From IMG/VR virus record IMGVR_UViG_3300010885_035225, positions 1-34,172 of that record: 34,172 bases of DNA; one strand, 5' to 3'. The position numbers and the translations under genes are program-made. The notes beneath the pieces were generated by a model that was not told the origin of the DNA, ran no database searches, and saw nothing but the letters and a program-made list of their open reading frames with translations. This document shows, piece by piece, positions 9,634-33,833 of this stretch. Within the stretch, counting starts at the first letter, position 1. The number at the start of each line of letters is the position of its first letter. This stretch comes from a virus.

Positions 9634-10521
9634 ATGGGTAGGAAATCAAAGGCGGCTTTGGCATTACAGGCGGAGATTGTGGACAACAGTCAGCAGCAGC
9701 TGATTCGCCACGAAAATCTGACGCCGGCTTTGCAGGAGATCGTCTCTGAGATTGACAATTTGTTCGGTGACATTCAGGTGGCCAGCCTGACGGCGTACTG
9801 GCGCGTGGGTCACCGAATCTCCGAGGTCAAAAACAACCCGGAGCGGTACCTGACGGCGCAGCAGCAATCGTCTCATGTGGACGGGGCGTCGTTGCTGGTG
9901 TCGATTTTCGCGCCGGTGTACACGTCCGAGCAGCTGCGCGGTGCCGTGAACTTCTTTGAGAAGTATCCCACCGAGGGCGAGATCACGCGGCTGCTGAGTC
10001 TGCGGTGCCCCGATAGGCCGCGGTGGCGTCTGACAACGTCTCACGTACAGCTGCTGGCTCAGATCACCGACGAGTCGCAGCGTACGACGATTGAAGAGAA
10101 GTGTGCCGAAGAGGCATACACAGCCCGAGCTTTGGCGACAGAGCTGCAGGAGCTGCGCGGTAAGCAGAAGAACAGTGGCAGGACACACAGGGCGCCGAAG
10201 GGCCTGAAGCAGCAGATTCATGACTTGCTGCAGCATCAGCGCCGGTTTATCGCCCGGTCGGAAAATCTGTGGCTAACCGAGAACAAGGACAACATCTATG
10301 ACGACATCGTGAACGCGTCGCCGACGAGGTTGGACGAGACAGTGCGGGGTTACTTGATCGAGATCGTTGAAAATTTCGACAAGCTGGGTGATCTGATTTC
10401 CGATCACGTTGGCATGTGTCGTAAGGTCAACCAAGAACTGGATCGTCGTGAAGAGAGCGACGAAGAAGTGGATGAAGCCCCGACTCAGCGTAAGAAGACG
10501 CGTTCAAATATCACAAGGTGA
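9634..10521 (+). CDS. DUF1016_N-like protein without visible nuclease domain
   Basis: The 295-residue gene has a full GGAGG ribosome site. Residues about 45-170 follow the layout of the DUF1016 N-terminal domain (YhcG-type proteins): 'AYWRVGHRISEV', then 'YTSEQLRGAVNFFEKYP', then a segment where relatives have 'LsWsHy..Ll' (here 'WRLTTSHVQLLAQI') and a final helix 'AYTARALATEL'. In YhcG relatives this precedes a PD-(D/E)xK nuclease domain, which is not seen here; instead a helical, charged C-terminus ends in a basic 'RKKTRSN' tail. DNA binding is likely but inferred. A ParB/KorB-like partition or regulatory role is an alternative. Confidence 0.65.
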   Translation: MGRKSKAALALQAEIVDNSQQQLIRHENLTPALQEIVSEIDNLFGDIQVASLTAYWRVGHRISEVKNNPERYLTAQQQSSHVDGASLLVSIFAPVYTSEQLRGAVNFFEKYPTEGEITRLLSLRCPDRPRWRLTTSHVQLLAQITDESQRTTIEEKCAEEAYTARALATELQELRGKQKNSGRTHRAPKGLKQQIHDLLQHQRRFIARSENLWLTENKDNIYDDIVNASPTRLDETVRGYLIEIVENFDKLGDLISDHVGMCRKVNQELDRREESDEEVDEAPTQRKKTRSNITR

Positions 10522-18888: not shown

Positions 18889-20823
18889 GTGTCGTCATTA
18901 CAACCTTCAGCCGGCATGGGTTATAACACCCTTGGCCGCGGTGCGCAGAGCGACGAGCGGTTCCCGGATCCGTTCTGTGACGTAGCCAGCCTGTCGATGC
19001 CTGAGAGCATCCAGTCTGCGCTGCGGTGGTGCGAATACATCATGAATGCCAACGGCCCGTATAGGCAGGCCGTAGATCGCGTAGTGTCGTACTTCATTAC
19101 CGACGTCGAGATCAAAGACACGGGCGAAAAGACAGTCGGCCGAGAAGAAAAAGAAAAGTTTCGTGTCTTTCTTGAAGACACGTTAAGTATCAAGAATGTG
19201 CTGCACACTGTCGCGCTGGACTATCTGACATACGGCAATTCTTTTACCAGCCTGCTGATCCCGTTTCGGCGTTATTTGTCGTGCAAGAAGTGCGGCTTAG
19301 AGATGCCGCTTGAGCGGGTTTACAATTCTTCACAGTGCGCTTTCAAGTGGCAGAACTTCGAATTCACCGCGACATGTCCGCACTGCAAAACCAGCGGCAT
19401 CTGGCGACACATTGATCGGCGCAGCGGCGACTCCGAATCGATGACAGTAAAGAGATGGAGCCCGCACGAAATCGATTTGCTGTGGGATCCGTACACGAAC
19501 GACGCTTCTTATATCTGGAAGATTCCTGAAGATTACCGCACGCTTATCCGGCAGGGTCACTTACATCATTTAGAGCGCGCCAGCTGGGAAGTCATTCAGG
19601 CGATCAAAAACGGTCAGAATCTGATGTTCGACAAGGGCGTCATTTTCCACCTAAAGGAAGATGCGCTTTCCGGCATGCGTAACCGCGGCTGGGGTATCTC
19701 ACGCATTCTGGTGAACTTCAGGCAGGCGTGGTATGTGCAGATTCTGCACAGATATAACGAAGCTATTGCGCTGGATTATGTTATCCCGTTCCGAGTTATC
19801 ACGCCGCAACCTCGTGGCGGCGATGCGCAGTCTGGTGACCCCGTACACACAATTAACCTTGCCAGCTTCTCTTCTCGTGTAGCGGCGATGATTCGCGCTC
19901 GCCGGTCTGACCCGGCGCGCTGGAACGTATTGCCGTTCCCCGTGAACTATCAGGCTCTTGGCGGTGACGCTACGCAGATGGCGCCCAAAGAGCTGCTAGA
20001 TCAGGGGCTTGAAACGCTACTGAAATGCATTGGTATGCCCGTAGAGCTGTTCAACGGCACGCTCACGCTTCAAGCTGCCCCGGCGGCTTTGCGGTTGTTC
20101 GAGGCGAACTGGAGTCACTTGCCGCATAACCTGAACAGGTTCTTGTCGCAACTTGTAGATGGTGTAGCTAAAGCTATGTCGTGGTCGCCCGTTACGGCCA
20201 AATTACAGCGTGTCACACACGCCGACGACCTCAACCGTCAGATGGCCAAGCTGCAACTCATGCAGGGTCAGCAGATTTCCAAGACAACTGGTCTTCAGAG
20301 CGTTGGCCTCGATTACGAGGAAGAAACAAAGCGCATGCTGGAAGAGCAGAAGATCTACGCCGAAGAGCAGGCTCGCATGCAGGAAGAGATGGAACAGTCT
20401 CAGCAGATGCAGGCTATGAGTCAGGGCCCAGACATGATGATGGGCGCTGGAAACACTGGCGCCAGCGCCACAGGCCAGCCGCAGCAGCCGCAACAAGGCG
20501 GTGGCGGCCAGCAGCAGCCGGCACCGGTCGGCCCGCCGCCGAGCCCCGTCGATCAGTTCTTGGCGCAACGACAGAACGCGCCCAATGTTCCGCGCACACC
20601 TGAAGATTTGCAAGCTCAAGCCCAGACTATTGCGAATCAGGTGCTCAGCATGCCCGAGCCGCAAAAGGACGCAGAGCTACTCAAGCTCAAGCGTAGCGAT
20701 CCGACAATGCATGCTCTTGTTACGAGCATGATTGACGATATTCGCCAGCAAGCGCGCTCACAGGGCGGGCAAATGGTAATGGCCCAACAATTCGGCCAAG
20801 GTGGCGGAGCACCGCCGCAATAA
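18889..20823 (+). CDS. Portal protein with inserted zinc ribbon
   Basis: The 644-residue protein starts at GTG 18889 behind an AGAGG site. It has the layout of large myovirus-like portals: an early 'YRQAVDRVVSYFITDVEI', 'LTYGNSFTSLLIPF', a helical 'VNFRQAWYVQILHRYNEAIALDYVIPFRVI', and a long Gln-rich coiled-coil and Gly/Pro C-terminus. Portals form the twelve-subunit ring through which DNA enters the capsid. Unusually, residues 132-166 hold two CxxC knuckles, C132-xx-C135 and C163-xx-C166, plus C150, consistent with a zinc ribbon inserted in the N-terminal part. No terminase or capsid genes lie beside it. The portal identity rests on overall pattern. Confidence 0.78.
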   Translation: MSSLQPSAGMGYNTLGRGAQSDERFPDPFCDVASLSMPESIQSALRWCEYIMNANGPYRQAVDRVVSYFITDVEIKDTGEKTVGREEKEKFRVFLEDTLSIKNVLHTVALDYLTYGNSFTSLLIPFRRYLSCKKCGLEMPLERVYNSSQCAFKWQNFEFTATCPHCKTSGIWRHIDRRSGDSESMTVKRWSPHEIDLLWDPYTNDASYIWKIPEDYRTLIRQGHLHHLERASWEVIQAIKNGQNLMFDKGVIFHLKEDALSGMRNRGWGISRILVNFRQAWYVQILHRYNEAIALDYVIPFRVITPQPRGGDAQSGDPVHTINLASFSSRVAAMIRARRSDPARWNVLPFPVNYQALGGDATQMAPKELLDQGLETLLKCIGMPVELFNGTLTLQAAPAALRLFEANWSHLPHNLNRFLSQLVDGVAKAMSWSPVTAKLQRVTHADDLNRQMAKLQLMQGQQISKTTGLQSVGLDYEEETKRMLEEQKIYAEEQARMQEEMEQSQQMQAMSQGPDMMMGAGNTGASATGQPQQPQQGGGGQQQPAPVGPPPSPVDQFLAQRQNAPNVPRTPEDLQAQAQTIANQVLSMPEPQKDAELLKLKRSDPTMHALVTSMIDDIRQQARSQGGQMVMAQQFGQGGGAPPQ

Positions 20824-21866
20824 TGCGTGTAGGTATTTACACTCACTACGCGCACTGCGACGAGGCATATTTAGCAATACGTCTCGCTGACTTTTTACGC
20901 ACTCAGAATGTGGAGTGCAGTATTTACTCAGAAAATCAGCCGGGCAAACTTGGCGTGATTTATGACAATGCGGTGCTGCACAAGAAAAAAACAAAATACA
21001 CTCACTGGGTAAAAGGGCTATCTACCGTGATCTGGACACGGCCGCCCAAGCTGGAGCAGGTCAATTACGCCAAGCGTTCAGGCTGTCACACGCTGATAGT
21101 GCCAATGTGGCAAGAGATGGTACGACCTTTTCGTAAGGTCATGCAGCGTGTAGATCACGTGATAGCCATGAGCGCCGAGTGCCGCGAGCTGTTTACTACG
21201 GTCTACAAGTTTAAAAACGTCACACTAATTCCGTTCGACACGGGCTTGCCGGCGATTAAAAAGCGGCAGAACGTCGACCCCAAAAAGGTAAAGATATTTT
21301 TACCGTGGTTTGATCGAAATGCCCGATGCGCCAACAGCAATTTTCTCGGGTTTTTGGGGTATCTCATTACGCGCATGCCAGACGCGCAGATCACAGTAGC
21401 CGTCTCATCCAGCAAGTTTTCTCCGGCAGTCGCCAAGTTTTTCAAAACGCTTGGGCGCAAAACAGACGGCCGGGTGACTCTTGTCAGAAAAGTACCGCTA
21501 TTAAAGCGGCTAGCGCTATACACCGAGCACGACCTGACGTTTTATCCGGCGGAATGCGATAATTACGGCTTTTGCGCGCTGACGTCTTTAAGCTGCGGGA
21601 CGCCGGTCTTGGCGTTCAATCTGTCGCCGCAGACTGACTTTATTCACCCGGAAACGAATGGCGCGTTGGTCAACACCAAAATAGACTATGACGAAAACGG
21701 AGCGCCGCATGCCGCCCCAGATTACGAAACAATCATCACATCGTTACAAACACTTATTGCTGAGCCTTGGAGTATTGATACTTTAAACAGACGCGTCAAC
21801 CACAACCTAAACACGCGACGCCGCGCCTTTGACCTAGGCTGGCAAACGATTTTGCGGTTGGTTTGA
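20823..21866 (+). CDS. GT-B fold glycosyltransferase (GT4-like)
   Basis: The 347-residue protein starts on the TAATG junction with the portal stop. It has the two-lobe layout of GT-B enzymes: an N-terminal lobe beginning 'MRVGIYTHYAHCDEAYLA', and a C-terminal lobe with 'VKIFLPWFDRN' and the nucleotide-sugar site 'YPAECDNYGFCALTSLSCGTPVLAF' region (E244, G249). The usual second acidic residue of the E-x7-E motif is not in its normal place, so catalysis should be tested. Such enzymes transfer sugars; here the acceptor could be virion protein, DNA base or host surface glycan. It is coupled to the portal, which makes a virion protein acceptor attractive but unproven. Confidence 0.76.
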   Translation: MRVGIYTHYAHCDEAYLAIRLADFLRTQNVECSIYSENQPGKLGVIYDNAVLHKKKTKYTHWVKGLSTVIWTRPPKLEQVNYAKRSGCHTLIVPMWQEMVRPFRKVMQRVDHVIAMSAECRELFTTVYKFKNVTLIPFDTGLPAIKKRQNVDPKKVKIFLPWFDRNARCANSNFLGFLGYLITRMPDAQITVAVSSSKFSPAVAKFFKTLGRKTDGRVTLVRKVPLLKRLALYTEHDLTFYPAECDNYGFCALTSLSCGTPVLAFNLSPQTDFIHPETNGALVNTKIDYDENGAPHAAPDYETIITSLQTLIAEPWSIDTLNRRVNHNLNTRRRAFDLGWQTILRLV

Positions 21867-21884
21867 CGGCACATGGAGGTGCCG

Positions 21885-22637
21885 ATGAACGACATGCACA
21901 TCGCGACAATGCAGCAAACGCTAGCATTTGCGAAACAACATTACAGCGATAAGCAGACCAACACGGGCGCAAGCTTGTTGGCGCACTGCACGACTGTCGC
22001 CCAGCAGGCAGAGACAATCGCGCAGAAGCTGTATCAGGACGTGCGCGCTGACTTCATGCCGGATGACACCAAGGACAGTATTGGCGCGATTATTCAGAGC
22101 GCTCTGCTGCACGATGTTTTGAATGTTAGCGCTTGCGCTTTCGAGAACATTGCTGAAATCGCTACGGTACAAGTGGCGGCAATGGTGGCTGACATTAGTC
22201 GCGACTTCCGGCTGGTCGAAACAAAGCGCGATATGGAATTCCGCGGTCGACTGAGTCAAAGCCCTGTTGGCGCGCAGATCGTCGTGGTAGCTGACGTTAT
22301 TTGCACTGCGCGTGACATGCTTGTGCTGCTGCAAAAGCAGGGGCTGCCATTTGTACCAAAGGCGAAAAAAATCCTTACGCAGCTTGACGGCGATCTTTTA
22401 GCTGTCCACGCAGCAAGTCGGTTCTATGTCTTGCGCATGTACGTGCACGCTGCTAGAAACCTGTTGGTCGATGTAAGCCAGACAATTAAAGCTTGTAAAA
22501 GCAAAGCAAAGCTTGACAAAATCGTAGCGCAAAATACAAAGGCGCTTCGGGAACGTACAGCGGCTAAAAAGAAAGCTGCCGAGTCACCACCCAAAAAGAA
22601 AGGTGTGCGATATGCCCGGAAAAGACGTACTGAGTAA
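21885..22637 (+). CDS. HD-domain protein resembling SpoT/MESH1 alarmone hydrolases
   Basis: The ATG at 21885, with GGAGG at 21875-21879, gives 250 residues. Residues 5-150 match the (p)ppGpp hydrolase layout: an opening helix 'LAFAKQHYSDKQTNTG', H34 in 'LAHCTTVAQQA', H76-D77 in 'ALLHDVLN', and D137 in 'IVVVADVICTARDML'. These are the four metal ligands. The Glu-Asp pair that normally follows two residues after His-Asp is replaced by Asn80-Val81, so alarmone hydrolysis is doubtful; it may have another nucleotide substrate. The C-terminus is strongly Lys/Arg-rich. It is near thymidylate kinase, which suggests nucleotide metabolism. Confidence 0.72.
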   Translation: MNDMHIATMQQTLAFAKQHYSDKQTNTGASLLAHCTTVAQQAETIAQKLYQDVRADFMPDDTKDSIGAIIQSALLHDVLNVSACAFENIAEIATVQVAAMVADISRDFRLVETKRDMEFRGRLSQSPVGAQIVVVADVICTARDMLVLLQKQGLPFVPKAKKILTQLDGDLLAVHAASRFYVLRMYVHAARNLLVDVSQTIKACKSKAKLDKIVAQNTKALRERTAAKKKAAESPPKKKGVRYARKRRTE

Positions 22638-22932
22638 GATCGGCGAGGATTATATTGCTGCCACGCCAGATGCTACACCTGAGAAGGTTTCAGCGTTTTG
22701 TGCCTATGCGGCTAAGTGGCTGTTAGACCGCGGCGTTGTCGGGTTGGGCCATACTGACAACGGAATGGCGCTGCGTTTTGCTGACGGCGAAGAATTGATG
22801 TTGTTTTCTCGTAATGTGCCTGAACTGCTTCCGGCTGCCCGGGGCGTATACAGCATTACGGGCGAAGCCGGCGGCAAAATATCAAAACCTGTTCTTGGCG
22901 ATGCGCCTGATTTTCAAATCACCGGCCGCTGA
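22612..22932 (+). CDS. Small hypothetical protein, 106 residues
   Basis: The ATG at 22612 is chosen because an AAAGG site lies 10-14 bases upstream, and it overlaps the HD gene by 26 bases. The protein has a helical first half ('VSAFCAYAAKWLLDRGV') and a beta-rich second half ('MALRFADGEELMLF'). No recognised motif. The overlap suggests co-expression with the HD protein. Confidence 0.65.
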   Translation: MPGKDVLSKIGEDYIAATPDATPEKVSAFCAYAAKWLLDRGVVGLGHTDNGMALRFADGEELMLFSRNVPELLPAARGVYSITGEAGGKISKPVLGDAPDFQITGR

Positions 22933-22966
22933 TTACTGATATCTAAAACATTTGGAAAGGACTCCA

Positions 22967-23611
22967 GTGTTCGTTTGTTTCGAGGGAATTGACGGTGCCG
23001 GCAAAACTACACAGGCCCGCATGCTGGCGCAGCGGCTCAAAAAAGACGGCGTCGCGGCCGAGCTGGTTGCCGATCCGGGAACGACAAGGATTGGCACGGC
23101 GATCCGACAGATCTTGCTGAACAACGACGATCCGATTTCGCCTGCAGCACAGATGCTTTTATTTTCTGCTGCCCGGGCTGAGCTATCGGCGTATATCCAG
23201 CAGCGCGTCAGTGAAGACGTTGTAGTTATTTGTGACCGCTGGCTACTCTCAACGCTGGTCTATCAAGGTGAGATCAACAATATCTCACTGGAGCTGATCA
23301 CGCACATTTTTCGGGAGACATCCTACGTCTGCCCAGAGATTTGTTTCTTGTTGGACTTAGCGCCAGAAGACGCCAAGGTGCGCATGGGCAATCCGCGCGA
23401 CCGGTATGAGCGGCGCTGCCTAAAAGATAGAGAGCGCATGCGCGCAGCGTATCAGACGCACGCCAAGCTCCGGCCGCACGCAAACGCGGTACATCACATC
23501 GACGCCAACCGCGATGTTGACATAACGCATGACGAGATTTACTCACTGTTCTGTCGAATCAGCAAGGTTTACGGCGTCCCTGTTCGCGATACGAAACCAG
23601 AAAGGACTTAG
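22967..23611 (+). CDS. tmk: Thymidylate kinase
   Basis: The GTG at 22967 is preferred: GGAAAGGA lies 7-14 bases before it and the protein then starts 'MFVCFEGIDGAGKTTQ' as in the family. The 214-residue enzyme transfers phosphate from ATP to dTMP, giving dTDP. Seen are the P-loop 'GIDGAGKTT' (residues 7-15), the D90-R91-W92 motif with 'STLVYQGE' after it, and an Arg-rich lid region 'PRDRYERR'. A 'DPGTT' loop stands where many bacterial enzymes have 'REPGGT'. Phages encode such kinases to raise dTTP supply. The identification is secure. Confidence 0.9.
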   Translation: MFVCFEGIDGAGKTTQARMLAQRLKKDGVAAELVADPGTTRIGTAIRQILLNNDDPISPAAQMLLFSAARAELSAYIQQRVSEDVVVICDRWLLSTLVYQGEINNISLELITHIFRETSYVCPEICFLLDLAPEDAKVRMGNPRDRYERRCLKDRERMRAAYQTHAKLRPHANAVHHIDANRDVDITHDEIYSLFCRISKVYGVPVRDTKPERT

Positions 23612-24500: not shown

Positions 24501-25316
24501 ATGGCCAACAAAAAGATATCTGAGCTGCCGGCAAAAACGACCCCAACCGGCGCCGACCTGCTTCCGATTGTTGACACGTCCACGGCGCCTTATACGTCCA
24601 AGACGGTTACTGCTTCCGCGCTGGCTCTGCTGTTTGACGCAGAGAAGATGGGCGCTACTGGTGTTGCCGGCCCCACAGGTCCGTCTGGCCCGGCGGGTGT
24701 TACCGGTCCTACTGGTCCGGCGCCGACTGTAACCGCCACAGCTGATCCAACCGTTGTTTTAGTTGGTGGTGTACCGGTGGCTGCTGCACGCGGCCAGACT
24801 GGCCCGCAGGGACCTACTGGGCCTGCTGGCGTCACAGGCGCTACTGGTGCCGGTTCGACTGGCGCCACAGGCATGTCGGGCGTAAAGGGGCAGACCGGCG
24901 TTACAGGCGCCACAGGTGTACCGGGTACTCCGGGCGTCTCCGGGCTCAGTGGTCCGGTTGGCGCTACAGGCCTCACTGGTGCTACCGGCCCGTCGGCGGC
25001 TGACAGCGTGTACGAGTTTAATGTTACCTATACCGGTTCGTCGCCAACGAGCATTACAAATCTTCCGGCCGGCTGGTCGTCTTCTATCGCTACGAACGAT
25101 GTAACGATTACTCACACTGTGGGAAGACCAGTTAATGACGTCACATACTGGGGTTATACGTCTGGTACAGGACTATGGCACGCTCGATACCCCACGGCGG
25201 CCAACGAGCTGACGACAACGAACAGCACAAAGACAACGGCGTTCACTGTGCGTATTTCAAATACCGTAGTGGGTTGCGACGCGGGCGGCTCGGCCCGGAT
25301 TGTATGTTTCTTCTAA
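24501..25316 (+). CDS. Collagen-like tail fibre protein 1
   Basis: The 271-residue protein has an N-terminal anchor-type domain '[20 protein letters not shown]' of a kind common at the base of phage fibres, then about 110 residues of Gly-X-Y repeats from residue 52 ('[16 protein letters not shown]'), interrupted once by a short non-collagen insert. The C-terminal 100 residues form a beta-rich head likely to bind a receptor. Collagen-like repeats form trimeric helices in phage fibres. The next gene follows after an 18-base gap. Confidence 0.8.
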
Positions 25317-25334: not shown

Positions 25335-26669
25335 ATGGCGTTTCAACCGACAAAAATATTGCGGTTCAGTATGGCGCAAACAGCGCCATACGCTACGTGG
25401 CCGCAAGATGACGGGTGGCAGGGCTACCCGTATCAGTGGAGTACAACGCTTTTTATTGGCTCGCAGTCGCACGGTTCTCCGTCGACGCGTGTGCCGTATT
25501 ATTACGACGGCCTTGACGTCAACGTTGGCGACTACATTGTCACGAGCGGGCAAGGACGAATTCTCAAGATTGTCGCTATCACGACCCAAGACTCGGGGTC
25601 TGTGCAATGCGTCGTTGAAGACGAGAACCGCGAAAACATTCTGCTCGATGAGACGACCAGTGGTGACGGCGGCATTCCAGACGGCGAAGGTTTGCTGTTT
25701 GAGGTAAAGAACGGCTGGCCGATTCTGCATCCGCTGCCGGACGCGTTAGCCGGAGCGCTGCCGCCGTATTTTTCGGCGGACATTATTGCGCGGTTCATGA
25801 ATTCCCGCCTAGACAACGGCGGCGGGAATGTTACTGGCCCAGTCGGTCCAAGCGGGCCTTCTGGACCGCAGGGCGTTACGGGCGTAAGCGGCGCAACTGG
25901 GCCCAGTGGCTCTATCGGCGCTACCGGCCCAGCCGGCGCGACAGGTATTCAGGGCGCCACAGGCGTTGGTGTTTCTGGGCCCATTTACGCGACGGGTGTG
26001 CGTTTTACTTACCCCGGATTGAACTACACAAATGTCAACGAAGCGTTAAGTGATCTTATCGGTACAGCTATAAGCAACCCGACCAACCCAAATACGCCGC
26101 AGGTTCTGTTAACCAATGACGTGAATCAGGTTGAGGCCGGCACGGTTGTGTCCGCTATCACGTTTAACTGGACATTGTCGAAAGGTACGATTACCGCGCA
26201 GTCTTTGACAGATGTCGGAACGCTGACGTCTACGCTGCGCACGTATAGCCTGACCGGTTTAAATATCACTACGCAAAAATCGTATGTGCTCTCGTACAGC
26301 CTTACTTATCTTGGCTATAGCGGCACAATTAACGACTCGGCGGCAACAACTATCTCATTTGCTCGAAAACGTTATTGGGGCCTTTCTGACGCGACAACGC
26401 TTACAGATGCGGATATTATTGGGCTTACGTCTGAGTTCTCAGCCGTACGCACACAATCGCGCGTATTTAATCCAACAGCGCAATACATCTATTTTGCTTG
26501 GCCGTCTACGTTCGGCGACGCAATTTTTAAATTCAACGGCCTTACAAACTCTGCTTGGATTTTGACTTCGCGGGTGTTCGTAAACGCCTCCGGCGGCGCC
26601 ACCACCTACAATATTTACCGCAGCCAGTATCAACAAAATGGCTCAAATATCGTTATTGAGGTGCTGTAA
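25335..26669 (+). CDS. Collagen-like tail fibre protein 2
   Basis: The 444-residue protein has a novel N-terminal domain (residues 1-165, aromatic- and Asp-rich) followed by about 50 residues of Gly-X-Y repeats ('[19 protein letters not shown]') and a long beta-rich C-terminal part with many Ser/Thr. It lacks the N-terminal anchor type seen in gene 24501. A 9-bp perfect inverted repeat (25801-25829) lies exactly at the border between the N-terminal and collagen parts. It ends on a TAATG junction with the next gene. Function as virion fibre is inferred from composition. Confidence 0.76.
25801..25829. repeat. Inverted repeat at a domain border of a fibre gene
   Basis: ATTCCCGCC (25801-25809) and GGCGGGAAT (25821-25829) are exact inverted copies around an 11-base loop. 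They sit where the N-terminal domain meets the collagen-like repeats. A 9-bp repeat like this can occur by chance in a sequence of this length, so its position is what makes it of interest. Confidence 0.5.
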
Positions 26670-28591: not shown

Positions 28592-30016
28592 GTGACACAA
28601 ATAGCTATCAATCAGTTGCAGGCCACAGGCGCTGTTGGTACGAGCGTTGTGCCGGTATCGACTGCTGACGGGTCGTCGACGAATAAAGTGACGCTGGCTG
28701 CAATTGCCGCGCTGGCTTCGACCGGCGGTTCTGGTGCTACTGGGCCTGCAGGCGTAACTGGAGCTACTGGCCCTGCTGGTTCTGGCGCGACGGGTGCTAC
28801 TGGGCCTGCAGGCGTAACTGGAGCTACTGGCCCTGCCGGCGCCGTAGGCGCTACTGGCCCCGCAGGTACTGGCGGCGACGGTTCTGGTGTTATTGCCGCC
28901 GCCACGGTAGCGGGTTTCCCAGCGACAGGCGTTTCTGGTGTTCTGTATTTGGCGACCGACACCGCACGCATTTACGAGTGGCAGGGAGTTTACGCTGAGT
29001 GCGGCGGCTCCGGCGCCGATCCGTTCCTTCGATCCCTGTTCGTGCCACCGGCCCCAACGAGCGTGACTGCGACGGCCGGCAACGCGCAGGCGACCGTGTC
29101 GTGGGCGGCGCCGACCGTGCTGACGCAAACGCCGATCACTGAATACGTGGTGGAATACACGCCGGCAGGTGGCAGTGCGACTGTTGTAAGTACAGGCAGC
29201 ACATCTACTAGCTACACACAGACCGGACTCACAAACAGCACGGCATACACTTTCAAGGTGGCTGGCGTGAACACTGTTGGTACTGGCAGCTACTCGACGC
29301 CGTCGAGTAGCGTGACCCCGATTAATGGAGATGCGTTCTACAACAACGTGGCGTTGCTCTTGCACGCGGACGGCACTGGCGGCACCTTTGTCGATTCGTC
29401 GCCATACTCGCGGACGATAACTGCGGAAGGAGGTGTAACGCAGTCAACATCGCAGAGCAAGTTCGGTGGAAAGAGCGCGTATTTCTCAAGTAGCGGGGAC
29501 TACCTCTCGGTTGCAGATGCCGATTCTGTTGAGTTGTCAAACAGCGATTTCGTGCTTGAGTTTTTCATGCAGACGACAAACTCGACGCAGTACGCAACGC
29601 TGGTTAGCCGTTCGCCAAGTTCTTACGAGTCCGGTGCGTGGTCGTTGTTAATGAATTCGGCAGACTCGACGTCTGGCGACATTGCTCTGTATGCAGCTGA
29701 CATAGCATCGCCAATCCTTCAGTCATCTGGCGTCAACCTACGTGACGGCTCGTGGCACTACGTTGCGGTTTCTCGCGCTGGCTCAAACTGGTCGCTTTAT
29801 GTTGATGGTACCAGAGTCGGAACAGGTACGTCGTCGGCCACGGTCGTCAACATCAGCGGAGGAATCAGGATTGGTGACGACGAATACTACGGCCGCCAGT
29901 ACACCGGATACATAGACGAATTCAGGCTCACCATCGGCCAGAATCGCGCGTACACAGGCACCATCATAACCGTCCCCACGGCGGCGTTTCCTGACTCTGG
30001 GCCAGCGGTCGTCTGA
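28592..30016 (+). CDS. Collagen-like tail protein with FN3 and LamG-like domains
   Basis: A GTG start with AAGG close before it gives 474 residues. The N-terminus has an anchor-type segment 'QIAINQLQATGAVGTSVVPV', similar to that of the gene at 24501. Residues about 46-95 are Gly-X-Y repeats, residues about 148-248 look like an FN3 domain ('PPAPTSVTATAGNAQATVSW'), and residues about 250-470 are a LamG/concanavalin-like beta sandwich ('LLLHADGTGGTFVDSSPYSR' to 'GYIDEFRLTIG'). Such domains bind carbohydrates, so this is a likely receptor-binding or adsorption protein. It is a paralogue of the LamG part of the gene at 30750. Confidence 0.8.
   Translation: MTQIAINQLQATGAVGTSVVPVSTADGSSTNKVTLAAIAALASTGGSGATGPAGVTGATGPAGSGATGATGPAGVTGATGPAGAVGATGPAGTGGDGSGVIAAATVAGFPATGVSGVLYLATDTARIYEWQGVYAECGGSGADPFLRSLFVPPAPTSVTATAGNAQATVSWAAPTVLTQTPITEYVVEYTPAGGSATVVSTGSTSTSYTQTGLTNSTAYTFKVAGVNTVGTGSYSTPSSSVTPINGDAFYNNVALLLHADGTGGTFVDSSPYSRTITAEGGVTQSTSQSKFGGKSAYFSSSGDYLSVADADSVELSNSDFVLEFFMQTTNSTQYATLVSRSPSSYESGAWSLLMNSADSTSGDIALYAADIASPILQSSGVNLRDGSWHYVAVSRAGSNWSLYVDGTRVGTGTSSATVVNISGGIRIGDDEYYGRQYTGYIDEFRLTIGQNRAYTGTIITVPTAAFPDSGPAVV
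28733..28836 (+). repeat. 44-base exact tandem repeat in a collagen-like region
   Basis: Bases 28733-28776 recur exactly at 28793-28836, 60 bases apart, within the Gly-X-Y part of the gene at 28592. Identity at DNA level, not only at protein level, shows recent duplication or gene conversion. Unequal recombination here would change fibre length. Confidence 0.85.
28754..28803 (+). repeat. 50-base exact repeat shared with a second fibre gene (copy 1)
   Basis: Bases 28754-28803 are identical to 30194-30243 in the following collagen-like gene. Both copies lie within the Gly-X-Y region. Perfect identity over 50 bases between separate genes points to recent exchange and offers a ready site for domain swapping. 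Confidence 0.88.
29289..29311. repeat. 10-bp inverted repeat at the FN3-LamG border
   Basis: GCTACTCGAC (29289-29298) and GTCGAGTAGC (29302-29311) are perfect inverted copies with a 3-base loop. They lie where the FN3-like domain ends and the LamG-like domain begins in the gene at 28592. A role as a recombination joint is a guess. Confidence 0.6.
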
Positions 30017-30064: not shown

Positions 30065-30745
30065 ATGGCACTTTCATTCCCCCCGTCCCCAACAATCGGT
30101 GAAACATATACGGCCAATGGCCGAACGTGGTCGTGGACTGGTGCGGCGTGGGAACTCGTTGGGGCGAATGCGGGTATAACTGGCGCTACCGGGGTAACTG
30201 GAGCTACTGGCCCTGCTGGTTCTGGCGCGACGGGTGCTACTGGCCCCGCGGGCACTGCGTGGGAAATACCCACGTTTTCAAGTTACAATTTTACGGCAGT
30301 TAACAAAAGGCAATACTATACTGCGCCTGACGATTCCACCGGAATGACGCCTTACGATATTGCCGATCCGGCGACGGGCGACTATTACTTTTTTTGGAAC
30401 CCGGGTAATAACCCAAATGTTTTTCGTGTTGGCGGCGTGACTGTTCCGGCTGGCCGGTTAATCGCTCGTGTGTTTAGCTCCACCCTTGCTGGCGCACAAT
30501 GGACAACGTACACGATAAGCAACGCGACAGGAACTAGCGGCGCAACTGGGCCCACCGGTGCAACTGGCCCCGCTGGATCTTCTGGTTCTGCCGGCGCTAC
30601 AGGCGCCACTGGCCCGGGTGTAGCCAGCAACATTACTGGCATTACCGGCGCTAGCGCAATCACAAATATTGTGTCATTGTCGGCATCTGCGTACGCGGCA
30701 ATTGGTTCGCCAAGTGCTACTACGCTGTACATAGTCACGGGGTAA
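30065..30745 (+). CDS. Collagen-like tail fibre protein 3
   Basis: The 226-residue protein starts with a short anchor-type segment 'PPSPTIGETYTANGRTWSW' found at the beginning of many tail proteins. It has two collagen-like stretches (residues about 36-64 and 156-188) around a globular middle, and ends with 'ITNIVSLSASAYAAIGSPSA', a tip module also seen in other phage tail proteins. It probably forms a short fibre or an accessory tail protein. The leader before it (30017-30064) holds no other visible element apart from a weak AGGA site. Confidence 0.76.
   Translation: MALSFPPSPTIGETYTANGRTWSWTGAAWELVGANAGITGATGVTGATGPAGSGATGATGPAGTAWEIPTFSSYNFTAVNKRQYYTAPDDSTGMTPYDIADPATGDYYFFWNPGNNPNVFRVGGVTVPAGRLIARVFSSTLAGAQWTTYTISNATGTSGATGPTGATGPAGSSGSAGATGATGPGVASNITGITGASAITNIVSLSASAYAAIGSPSATTLYIVTG
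30194..30243 (+). repeat. 50-base exact repeat (copy 2)
   Basis: This is identical to 28754-28803 in the preceding gene (see there). The flanking bases differ at both ends. Confidence 0.88.
30258..30274. repeat. Short inverted repeat at the end of a collagen block
   Basis: CGTGGG (30258-30263) and CCCACG (30269-30274) are exact inverted copies around 5 bases and are followed by TTTT. They are where the first collagen block of gene 30065 ends. A 6-bp arm can easily arise by chance. Confidence 0.35.
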
Positions 30746-31970: not shown

Positions 31971-32716
31971 TGTGGCGCAATCGTGTTATGTTTATTTCGT
32001 ACTGCACGCAGATCAAAAACAGGCTGCCGCAATTCGAACAGGTATTTGCGCATAACCTCGCGCACGTTTTAGATAACCCCGACACAGAATGGGTTATCGT
32101 TGACTGCGATTCTTCAGACGGGCTAGACGCATTTATCGCAGACGAGTTTCCAGTATTTCCTGCTCACGTGCACTACTACCGCTCCCGACCGCAGGCGTAC
32201 TCAATCCCTGTGGCAAAGAACTTTGCTGCGCGGCTTAGTTCTGGCGACTATTTGTTCAACCTAGACGCCGATAACTTCATTGGCGATACGTCTGCCCATA
32301 TACGTCGCGTGGGCCGGTATGACGGTATTTGCTGCGACTTGTTTAAACGCGGTGTGTACGGCCGTATTGGTTGCGCCCGTAAAATCTTCGAGTTTGTCGG
32401 CGGCTACGACGAGTCATTTTTGCCGGCGGCCAAACACGATGTGGATCTGAGGGCGCGATGCGGGATTATTGGCTATAATTTTGTCAATGTTGTGCCCGAT
32501 ATTGGCGCTATTCTGAACGTAAAAGAAGACACGGTGCGAAACTTTGCGTCGGATCTTAGCTGGGAGCAAATGCACGCATTAAACACAGAGAAAATGCAGC
32601 AGAATTTAGCCCTGCGAAACTACTGTCCCAATCAGTGCATGACTTCCGGCGAATTCATCTATAATTTTGACAGCGTTGTTCGGCTAACAGAGGATTTCAA
32701 AAATGCTATTCGTTAA
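31970..32716 (+). CDS. GT-A glycosyltransferase (Glyco_transf_7C-like)
   Basis: Start at ATG 31970 on the TGATG junction gives 248 residues; an alternative ATG is at 31988. The DxD motif is 'LDADNFIG' (D99, D101), preceded by the beta strand 'WVIVDCDSSDG'. The segment 'FEFVGGYDESFLPAAKHDVD' matches the C-terminal part of galactosyltransferase-like GT-A enzymes. It should transfer a sugar from a nucleotide donor. Its place between a LamG tail gene and the lyase gene suggests that it modifies fibre proteins, which is inference. It overlaps the next gene by 14 bases. Confidence 0.74.
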   Translation: MWRNRVMFISYCTQIKNRLPQFEQVFAHNLAHVLDNPDTEWVIVDCDSSDGLDAFIADEFPVFPAHVHYYRSRPQAYSIPVAKNFAARLSSGDYLFNLDADNFIGDTSAHIRRVGRYDGICCDLFKRGVYGRIGCARKIFEFVGGYDESFLPAAKHDVDLRARCGIIGYNFVNVVPDIGAILNVKEDTVRNFASDLSWEQMHALNTEKMQQNLALRNYCPNQCMTSGEFIYNFDSVVRLTEDFKNAIR

Positions 32717-33833
32717 TCCACAGCGGCTGCAAAATATCCCCGCCGCGGCGGGCGTCTCGTTTTTGACTGACGCGGCATCGCTTCTCGCCATGCCTGATAT
32801 CAGCGTAACGCAGAACGAGGCTGCTATTAAACAGCTGACTGGCGCGAACAACTATACAAGTATTGCGCCGTATTATCACCCAGACCCGGCGACAGAAACT
32901 GGTTTTCCGTACATTCGTCGCGATGGCGTGCGCAACCCAGAAGCTGCGCAAACGTCCGACTCCAAGTACTTATACAACATGCTTTATGCTGTACAGAGTC
33001 TGGTGATTGCGTACAAAACAACCGGCGATGCTAGTCACGCTGCGCGCGCTGTTGAGCTGCTACGGTTTTTCTTTATTGCGCCAGCAACAAAAATGAATCC
33101 AGACTTGACGTACAGTCAGGTCGTATTTGGTGCAAGTCGCGCTGATCTAAAGATCCGTGGCGCCGTCATTGATTTCGACAGGTTTCCGCTCATTGTCGAC
33201 TTTGTTGAGATCTTGAGTGCCACGCCAAGTTGGACGGCGGAAGATACGGCTGTCATGAAAGATTGGTTCACAGCGCTAGCTGATTGGTTTGTGACCTCAC
33301 CGCGTGGAATTATTCAAGACGGTTACAGCCATAATATCAAAACGTCGTATGTCACTCAGCGTGTTGCTTACCTATGCGCAGCTGACAAGCGCGATGAAGC
33401 AATTGCATATTTGAATGCAAACGTGCCGGCGTTATTGGACGCGCAGATCGACACAGAGGGAAAGCAGGCGTTAGAGATGTCGCGTGTCACTAACCGGCGC
33501 TACTGCGAATTTAACCTGACACTACTGTGCCGGCTTGCGACTATGGCCGGAAACCTTGGCGTAGACTTGTGGAATCACGTAGGCGAAAACCGTATCGGCA
33601 GTATCAAAGCCGCTATGCTCTATATGGCGCAATTCACTATGCCCGGCGCTGTGTGGCCTTTTTCGGAAGAACATCTGAACACCGCCTCTTCCCGTGAGTG
33701 GTTGCGATATGGTGTAGCGATGTATGACGATACGGCGCTGGTTGACGCTTACGCGCGTGTCAAAATGTATGGCGTAATTTCGTTGCCTAACTACATCACA
33801 ACGCCGCCCGGACCGTATATCGAAAGGGCGTAA
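32703..33833 (+). CDS. Alginate lyase-like protein (PL5 family), possible depolymerase
   Basis: The 376-residue protein matches the alpha/alpha-toroid alginate lyase family along its length: 'RRDGVRNPE', 'FFIAPATKMNPDLTYSQVVF', 'WFVTSPRGI', 'QIDTEGKQALEMSR' (R261) and 'RYCEFNL' (Y267). PL5 enzymes cleave alginate by beta-elimination. The family's Asn-Asn-His catalytic segment is not in its usual form; the region reads 'YSHNIKTSY' (H210, N211), so activity or specificity may be altered. No signal peptide is seen, as expected for a virion or lysis-released enzyme. It lies in the tail-fibre locus, consistent with a tail depolymerase. Confidence 0.8.
   Translation: MLFVNPQRLQNIPAAAGVSFLTDAASLLAMPDISVTQNEAAIKQLTGANNYTSIAPYYHPDPATETGFPYIRRDGVRNPEAAQTSDSKYLYNMLYAVQSLVIAYKTTGDASHAARAVELLRFFFIAPATKMNPDLTYSQVVFGASRADLKIRGAVIDFDRFPLIVDFVEILSATPSWTAEDTAVMKDWFTALADWFVTSPRGIIQDGYSHNIKTSYVTQRVAYLCAADKRDEAIAYLNANVPALLDAQIDTEGKQALEMSRVTNRRYCEFNLTLLCRLATMAGNLGVDLWNHVGENRIGSIKAAMLYMAQFTMPGAVWPFSEEHLNTASSREWLRYGVAMYDDTALVDAYARVKMYGVISLPNYITTPPGPYIERA

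Follow-up and report, generated by a model that had tools for sequence, protein, structure and literature searches.

A stand-alone HD protein of uncultured phages, related to small alarmone hydrolases, is a probable pseudo-hydrolase

The HD gene and its genetic environment

The window (the whole 34,172-nucleotide stretch of virus DNA that was analyzed, IMG/VR record IMGVR_UViG_3300010885_035225) includes an intact ORF at nucleotides 21,885 to 22,637 that codes for a 250-amino acid, single-domain protein, named here the HD protein, a probable pseudo-hydrolase with the predicted fold of small alarmone hydrolases (SAHs) and MESH1. This gene and all other features given below with both window coordinates are located on the + strand. 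Since a Shine-Dalgarno-like GGAGGT sequence (nucleotides 21,875 to 21,880) directly precedes the ATG at 21,885, and many relatives lack the alternative upstream ATG at 21,873, the former was taken as the start codon, in agreement with the original prediction. The ORF is a real gene, with homologues at more than 80 loci in IMG/VR.

The HD gene is found within a block with the order ORF 17718, portal gene (18889), glycosyltransferase-like gene (20823), HD gene, ORF 22612, thymidylate kinase gene, ORF 23607 and ORF 24181, which is kept, contig ends excepted, in the 49 loci compared, and collagen-like tail-fiber genes usually come after it. The portal gene (18,889 to 20,823) encodes a protein that is 26% identical over 464 amino acids to its counterpart in Salmonella phage Arash (E 7e-58), a portal protein that has been detected in virions by mass spectrometry (PMC10585845). 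The glycosyltransferase-like gene (20,823 to 21,866; Glycos_transf_1, E 1.7e-4, under the cut-off; PHROG 2170, E 2.5e-5) is located upstream of the HD gene at every locus examined, and no relative of it was found among isolate phages. Downstream, a small conserved ORF that matches no known family (22,612 to 22,932) overlaps the end of the HD gene by 26 bases and is followed by the thymidylate kinase gene (22,952 to 23,611; Pfam PF02223, E 1.5e-36). The proximity of this kinase, the second gene downstream, had been considered to make a nucleotide-related role plausible. While the synteny is real, the position does not favor such a role because the portal gene shares the conserved block.

In the window the tail-fiber-like genes with collagen-like repeats lie in a row (24,501 to 25,316, 25,335 to 26,669, 28,592 to 30,016, and 30,065 to 30,745), and downstream of them an alginate lyase domain (32,703 to 33,833; PF05426, E 8.5e-48) probably belongs to a polysaccharide depolymerase. 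A protein with a DUF1016_N domain (9,634 to 10,521; E 5.9e-8, just above the cut-off) is encoded amid unknown phage genes.

A total of 58 distinct homologues of the HD protein were collected, every one of them on uncultured phage contigs, with a lowest pairwise identity of 40%. The long relatives are contigs of 193-205 kb that carry the HD gene in single copy, and the HD protein is a core protein of this uncultured group of phages of approximately 200 kb. A search of 84,980 bacterial and archaeal genomes gave no relative, and no member of the family was found among isolate phages; the only two matches there, at 25%, are both ordinary bifunctional Rel-type sequence with HD-xx-ED and lie outside the HD family. 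A RelA_SpoT synthetase domain (PF04607) was found in none of 11 long relatives. Ten of these 11 include a mazG gene, far from the HD gene, and, should the phage perform any clean-up of nucleotides or alarmones, MazG is a candidate for it.

Predicted fold and relationship to small alarmone hydrolases

An AlphaFold model of the HD protein, obtained with 40 family members, had a pLDDT of 84 and a pTM of 0.78. The best 14 Foldseek matches of this model were SAHs or MESH1 with no exception. Comparison using VIA-align 2 gave a Z-score of 20.6 with the Pseudomonas aeruginosa SAH (2.5 Å over 172 residues), 19.6 with human MESH1, and 16.7 with SpoT, while the values for other HD families were lower (YpgQ, 14.5; dGTPase, 10.6; DatZ, 9.7). 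Profile-profile comparison (hhalign) of the HD family with SAHs resulted in a probability of 93% (E 2.7e-7), which increased to 96% (E 1.3e-9) with a larger SAH profile, and MESH1 orthologues were at the top of a phmmer search of PDB sequences with the HD protein (3nqw, E 0.0032). A MESH1 sequence served as a query in the SAH comparisons, and the superposition on MESH1 was judged through alignments and Z-scores. The fold can thus be assigned to the RSH hydrolase branch: as modeled, the HD protein has the fold of the (p)ppGpp hydrolases, ahead of other HD families, and common ancestry with the SAHs is the best explanation. A non-SpoT HD family as the best structural match was looked for and not found, and the SpoT/MESH1-like shape that had been proposed from the sequence thus holds after profile searches and structure prediction.

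Matches to domain libraries were weaker. The window protein scored 17.1 bits with Pfam HD_4 (PF13328; cut-off 27.2) and 17.0 bits with Pfam HD (PF01966; cut-off 22), in both cases below the cut-off, and the predicted fold agrees with the latter; the best of 40 family members reached E-values of 1.4e-6 for HD_4 and 4.6e-6 for HD. NCBIfam gave weak matches to HDIG (0.0023) and, in one member, to NTPtran_DVU1551 (3.6e-6), a model with which the window protein scored 20 bits for a cut-off of 315. A search of PDB sequences with the family profile gave no meaningful match. A SesA match of the window protein was dismissed as due to chance, as it recurs in only one of 40 members.

The likeness to the structures of P. 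aeruginosa SAH (6yvc), human MESH1 (3nr1/5vxa), and Corynebacterium glutamicum RelH (7qoc) extends over residues 1-201 of the HD protein (Z 18-20.6) and includes, in the window protein, the four metal ligands and the stand-alone nature of the domain. On the other hand, the HD protein lacks the Glu-Asp pair, the guanine-stacking Arg and the Asn that follows the last Asp, its family does not conserve the metal site, and a C-terminal extension past the SAH fold (22,485 to 22,634) adds a long helix that reaches approximately residue 233 and then a basic tail, with 19 Lys or Arg residues among the last 50.

The Glu-Asp pair and the metal ligands

In profile-profile alignment with the SAHs, the window protein segment HDVLNV, which starts with His76-Asp77 (22,110 to 22,115), aligns free of gaps on the HDxxED motif, and Asn80-Val81 (22,122 to 22,127) occupies the place of the catalytic Glu-Asp. 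The pair is missing in 58 of 58 homologues and present in all of 90 SAHs. An intact Glu-Asp aligning elsewhere in the site was also looked for and not found, and the absence of the pair noticed in the original prediction holds family-wide. The positions that had been named as metal-binding, His34 (21,984 to 21,986; RelSeq His53), His76, Asp77, and Asp137 (22,293 to 22,295), do align on the SAH ligands, and all four residues are present in the window protein.

Across the family these ligands are not conserved. His34 is Phe or Tyr in 6 of the 58 homologues, His76 is replaced by Ser, Ala, Leu or Arg in 9 and Asp77 by Glu or Pro in 12, and the fourth ligand, Asp137, is replaced in 15 (13 if Glu is allowed). 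The complete HHDD tetrad is found in 41 homologues, that of the window included. In 14 the metal site is broken, i.e., one or more ligand positions have lost the required His or Asp/Glu, and three more with Asp-to-Glu changes alone may still bind metal. A tree built without the metal-ligand columns places the breakage in about five independent changes; parsimony gives the number of changes but no direction, and we read them as losses because the SAHs have the ligands. The best explanation is that the Glu-Asp pair was lost before the phage lineage diversified, and that the metal ligands drifted later in several branches.

Several controls bear on these losses. In the 90 SAHs, most of them 34 to 53% identical to their own query, His53, His77, Asp78, Glu81, Asp82, Asp144, Asn148, and Arg44 (RelSeq numbering) are kept with at most one gap; this control is partly biased at the His-Asp and Glu-Asp columns because some members were found through a pattern containing HDTIEDTG, and less so at the His53, Asp144 and Asn148 columns. 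In all 53 thymidylate kinases encoded by the same phage contigs, the P-loop and DRW motifs are invariant, also beside broken HD proteins. One homologue, L168, lacks all four metal ligands, and its model nevertheless has a pLDDT of 89 and matches the SAH fold with a Z-score of 18.1 (2.4 Å over 170 residues). Since five contigs carry this protein with 100% identity, the loss is not an assembly artifact. Values of pN/pS, calculated with synonymous sites near saturation, ranged from 0.07 to 0.21 where both proteins of a pair were intact and from 0.17 to 0.28 where at least one was broken; both broken and intact HD proteins are under strong purifying selection. Taken together, these controls indicate that selection maintains a function independent of the metal.

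Residues conserved in place of the catalytic site

The 58 homologues share 33 invariant columns, about half of them charged. The most conserved stretch, residues 105-126 (SRDFRLVETKRDMEFRGRLSQS; 22,197 to 22,262), corresponds to the loop α6-α7 and helix α7 and has a mean entropy of 0.28 bit, compared to 1.30 over the rest of the core. Invariant residues also concentrate at 166-171 (QLDGDL; 22,380 to 22,397), where Q166, D168, D170, and L171 are invariant, and at 181-202. C140, one turn past D137 in the helix of the former pocket, is invariant as well.

A precedent for an inactive domain of this kind is the hydrolase domain of Escherichia coli RelA, which is devoid of HDxxED and uses its α6-α7 loop to control the synthetase and ribosome binding (PMC8012599). 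The two proteins have in common an SAH-type fold without HDxxED (PMC8012599; PMC3153485), and the functional loop of RelA corresponds to part of the segment most conserved in the HD family; however, the dead domain of RelA is fused to an active synthetase while the HD protein stands alone. Our search of the literature found no paper on phage HD pseudoenzymes and met no stand-alone RSH-type pseudo-hydrolase; a search on ppGpp hydrolases encoded by phages gave one paper, on an unrelated subject.

Possible roles of the HD protein

We consider it rather likely that the HD protein is a stand-alone pseudo-hydrolase in which metal-dependent hydrolysis is dispensable and a conserved face binds a macromolecule. 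Its ancestor would have had the small alarmone hydrolase fold, and the dependence on metal-ion hydrolysis would have disappeared, while selection appears to keep mostly charged residues in the α6-α7 loop, helix α7, and the helices at 166-171 and 181-202. These residues would form a putative face for the binding of a macromolecule of the phage or the host, and the HD protein could therefore act as a scaffold or a regulator in the phage cycle. From the state of the catalytic residues we infer that hydrolytic activity is absent, and the conservation of the α6-α7 face together with the analogy to RelA points to a binding role for it; the protein probably acts by binding something and not as a (p)ppGpp hydrolase. 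The gene order, with the HD gene downstream of the portal gene, suggests a possible participation in virion formation.

One finding fits this reading less well: HHDD is retained in 41 of 58 homologues, a proportion higher than expected if the site were completely idle and the ligands had no part in the fold. The same count is in favor of a metal-dependent phosphohydrolase of another nucleotide, in which the metal site works in most members without the Glu-Asp pair and was lost in a few branches that no longer required the activity. Other HD families are active although they do not have HDxxED, and YpgQ, YfbR, dGTPase, and DatZ are among the structural matches. Against this possibility, which we regard as unlikely, the conservation of D137 is exceeded by that of 127 of the 194 core columns, and the broken lineages, in which the other invariant residues are kept, still experience strong purifying selection, which indicates that the main selected function is metal-independent. 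Hydrolysis of a different nucleotide, as had been suggested for the altered site, is thus not supported given a metal site broken in 14 homologues by about five independent events. The accompanying suggestion that the protein only binds a nucleotide is weak for an alarmone. A non-hydrolyzing sensor or sponge relying on the old pocket would be compatible with the SAH fold and with a site that lost Glu-Asp and retained His and Asp, as expected for binding without turnover, but the SAH positions that contact the nucleotide are either substituted or variable in the HD family. RelSeq Arg44 corresponds to Thr25 and Asn148 to Thr141, Lys45 falls on residue 26, which is highly variable in the family, and in the phmmer alignment MESH1 Lys97, a phosphate-binding lysine, falls on Glu112, invariant in the HD family. 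Such a binder is improbable.

The share of charged residues, about half, among the 33 invariant positions, and the location of C140 one turn after D137, could also be explained if E43, E87, D107, E112, D116, E118, D168, D170, R184, H188, and C140 made up a rebuilt pocket that catalyzes a different reaction. We find this still less convincing, as a contiguous invariant segment such as 105-126 would rather be expected at an interface. Phage-encoded proteins with the SAH fold that are active, or presumably so, are known, and PaSpo, the SAH of Salmonella phage SSU5, acts on tRNA by removing the pyrophosphate that FaRel2 installs (PMC11559606). This precedent makes a counter-defense hydrolase directed against toxic small alarmone synthetases conceivable. 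However, an action of the PaSpo type belongs to an active hydrolase, while the catalytic residues of the HD family are absent or eroded; the SAHs of Bordetella phage PHB04, Dickeya phage JA13, and Rhizobium phage IC12 keep the His, His-Asp, Glu-Asp, Asp, and Asn, and the phage SAHs have no close sequence relation to it. We consider a counter-defense hydrolase very improbable. A broader scheme, in which the former pocket and the rim of this core protein were rebuilt as a new site, either catalytic or for the binding of a ligand or macromolecule, that links host takeover or the assembly of virions to a component of host signaling, is speculative and rather unlikely.

The SAH fold makes it easy to annotate a phage protein as a (p)ppGpp hydrolase. 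The HD family illustrates that the fold, and in a single sequence even a complete HD tetrad, can be misleading; here the pattern of conservation among relatives speaks for a non-catalytic role. If this role of the stand-alone pseudo-hydrolase is confirmed, the family would provide a natural means to examine what RSH hydrolase domains can bind through their α6-α7 segment, and the series of homologues with broken metal sites makes such binding testable using wild sequences.
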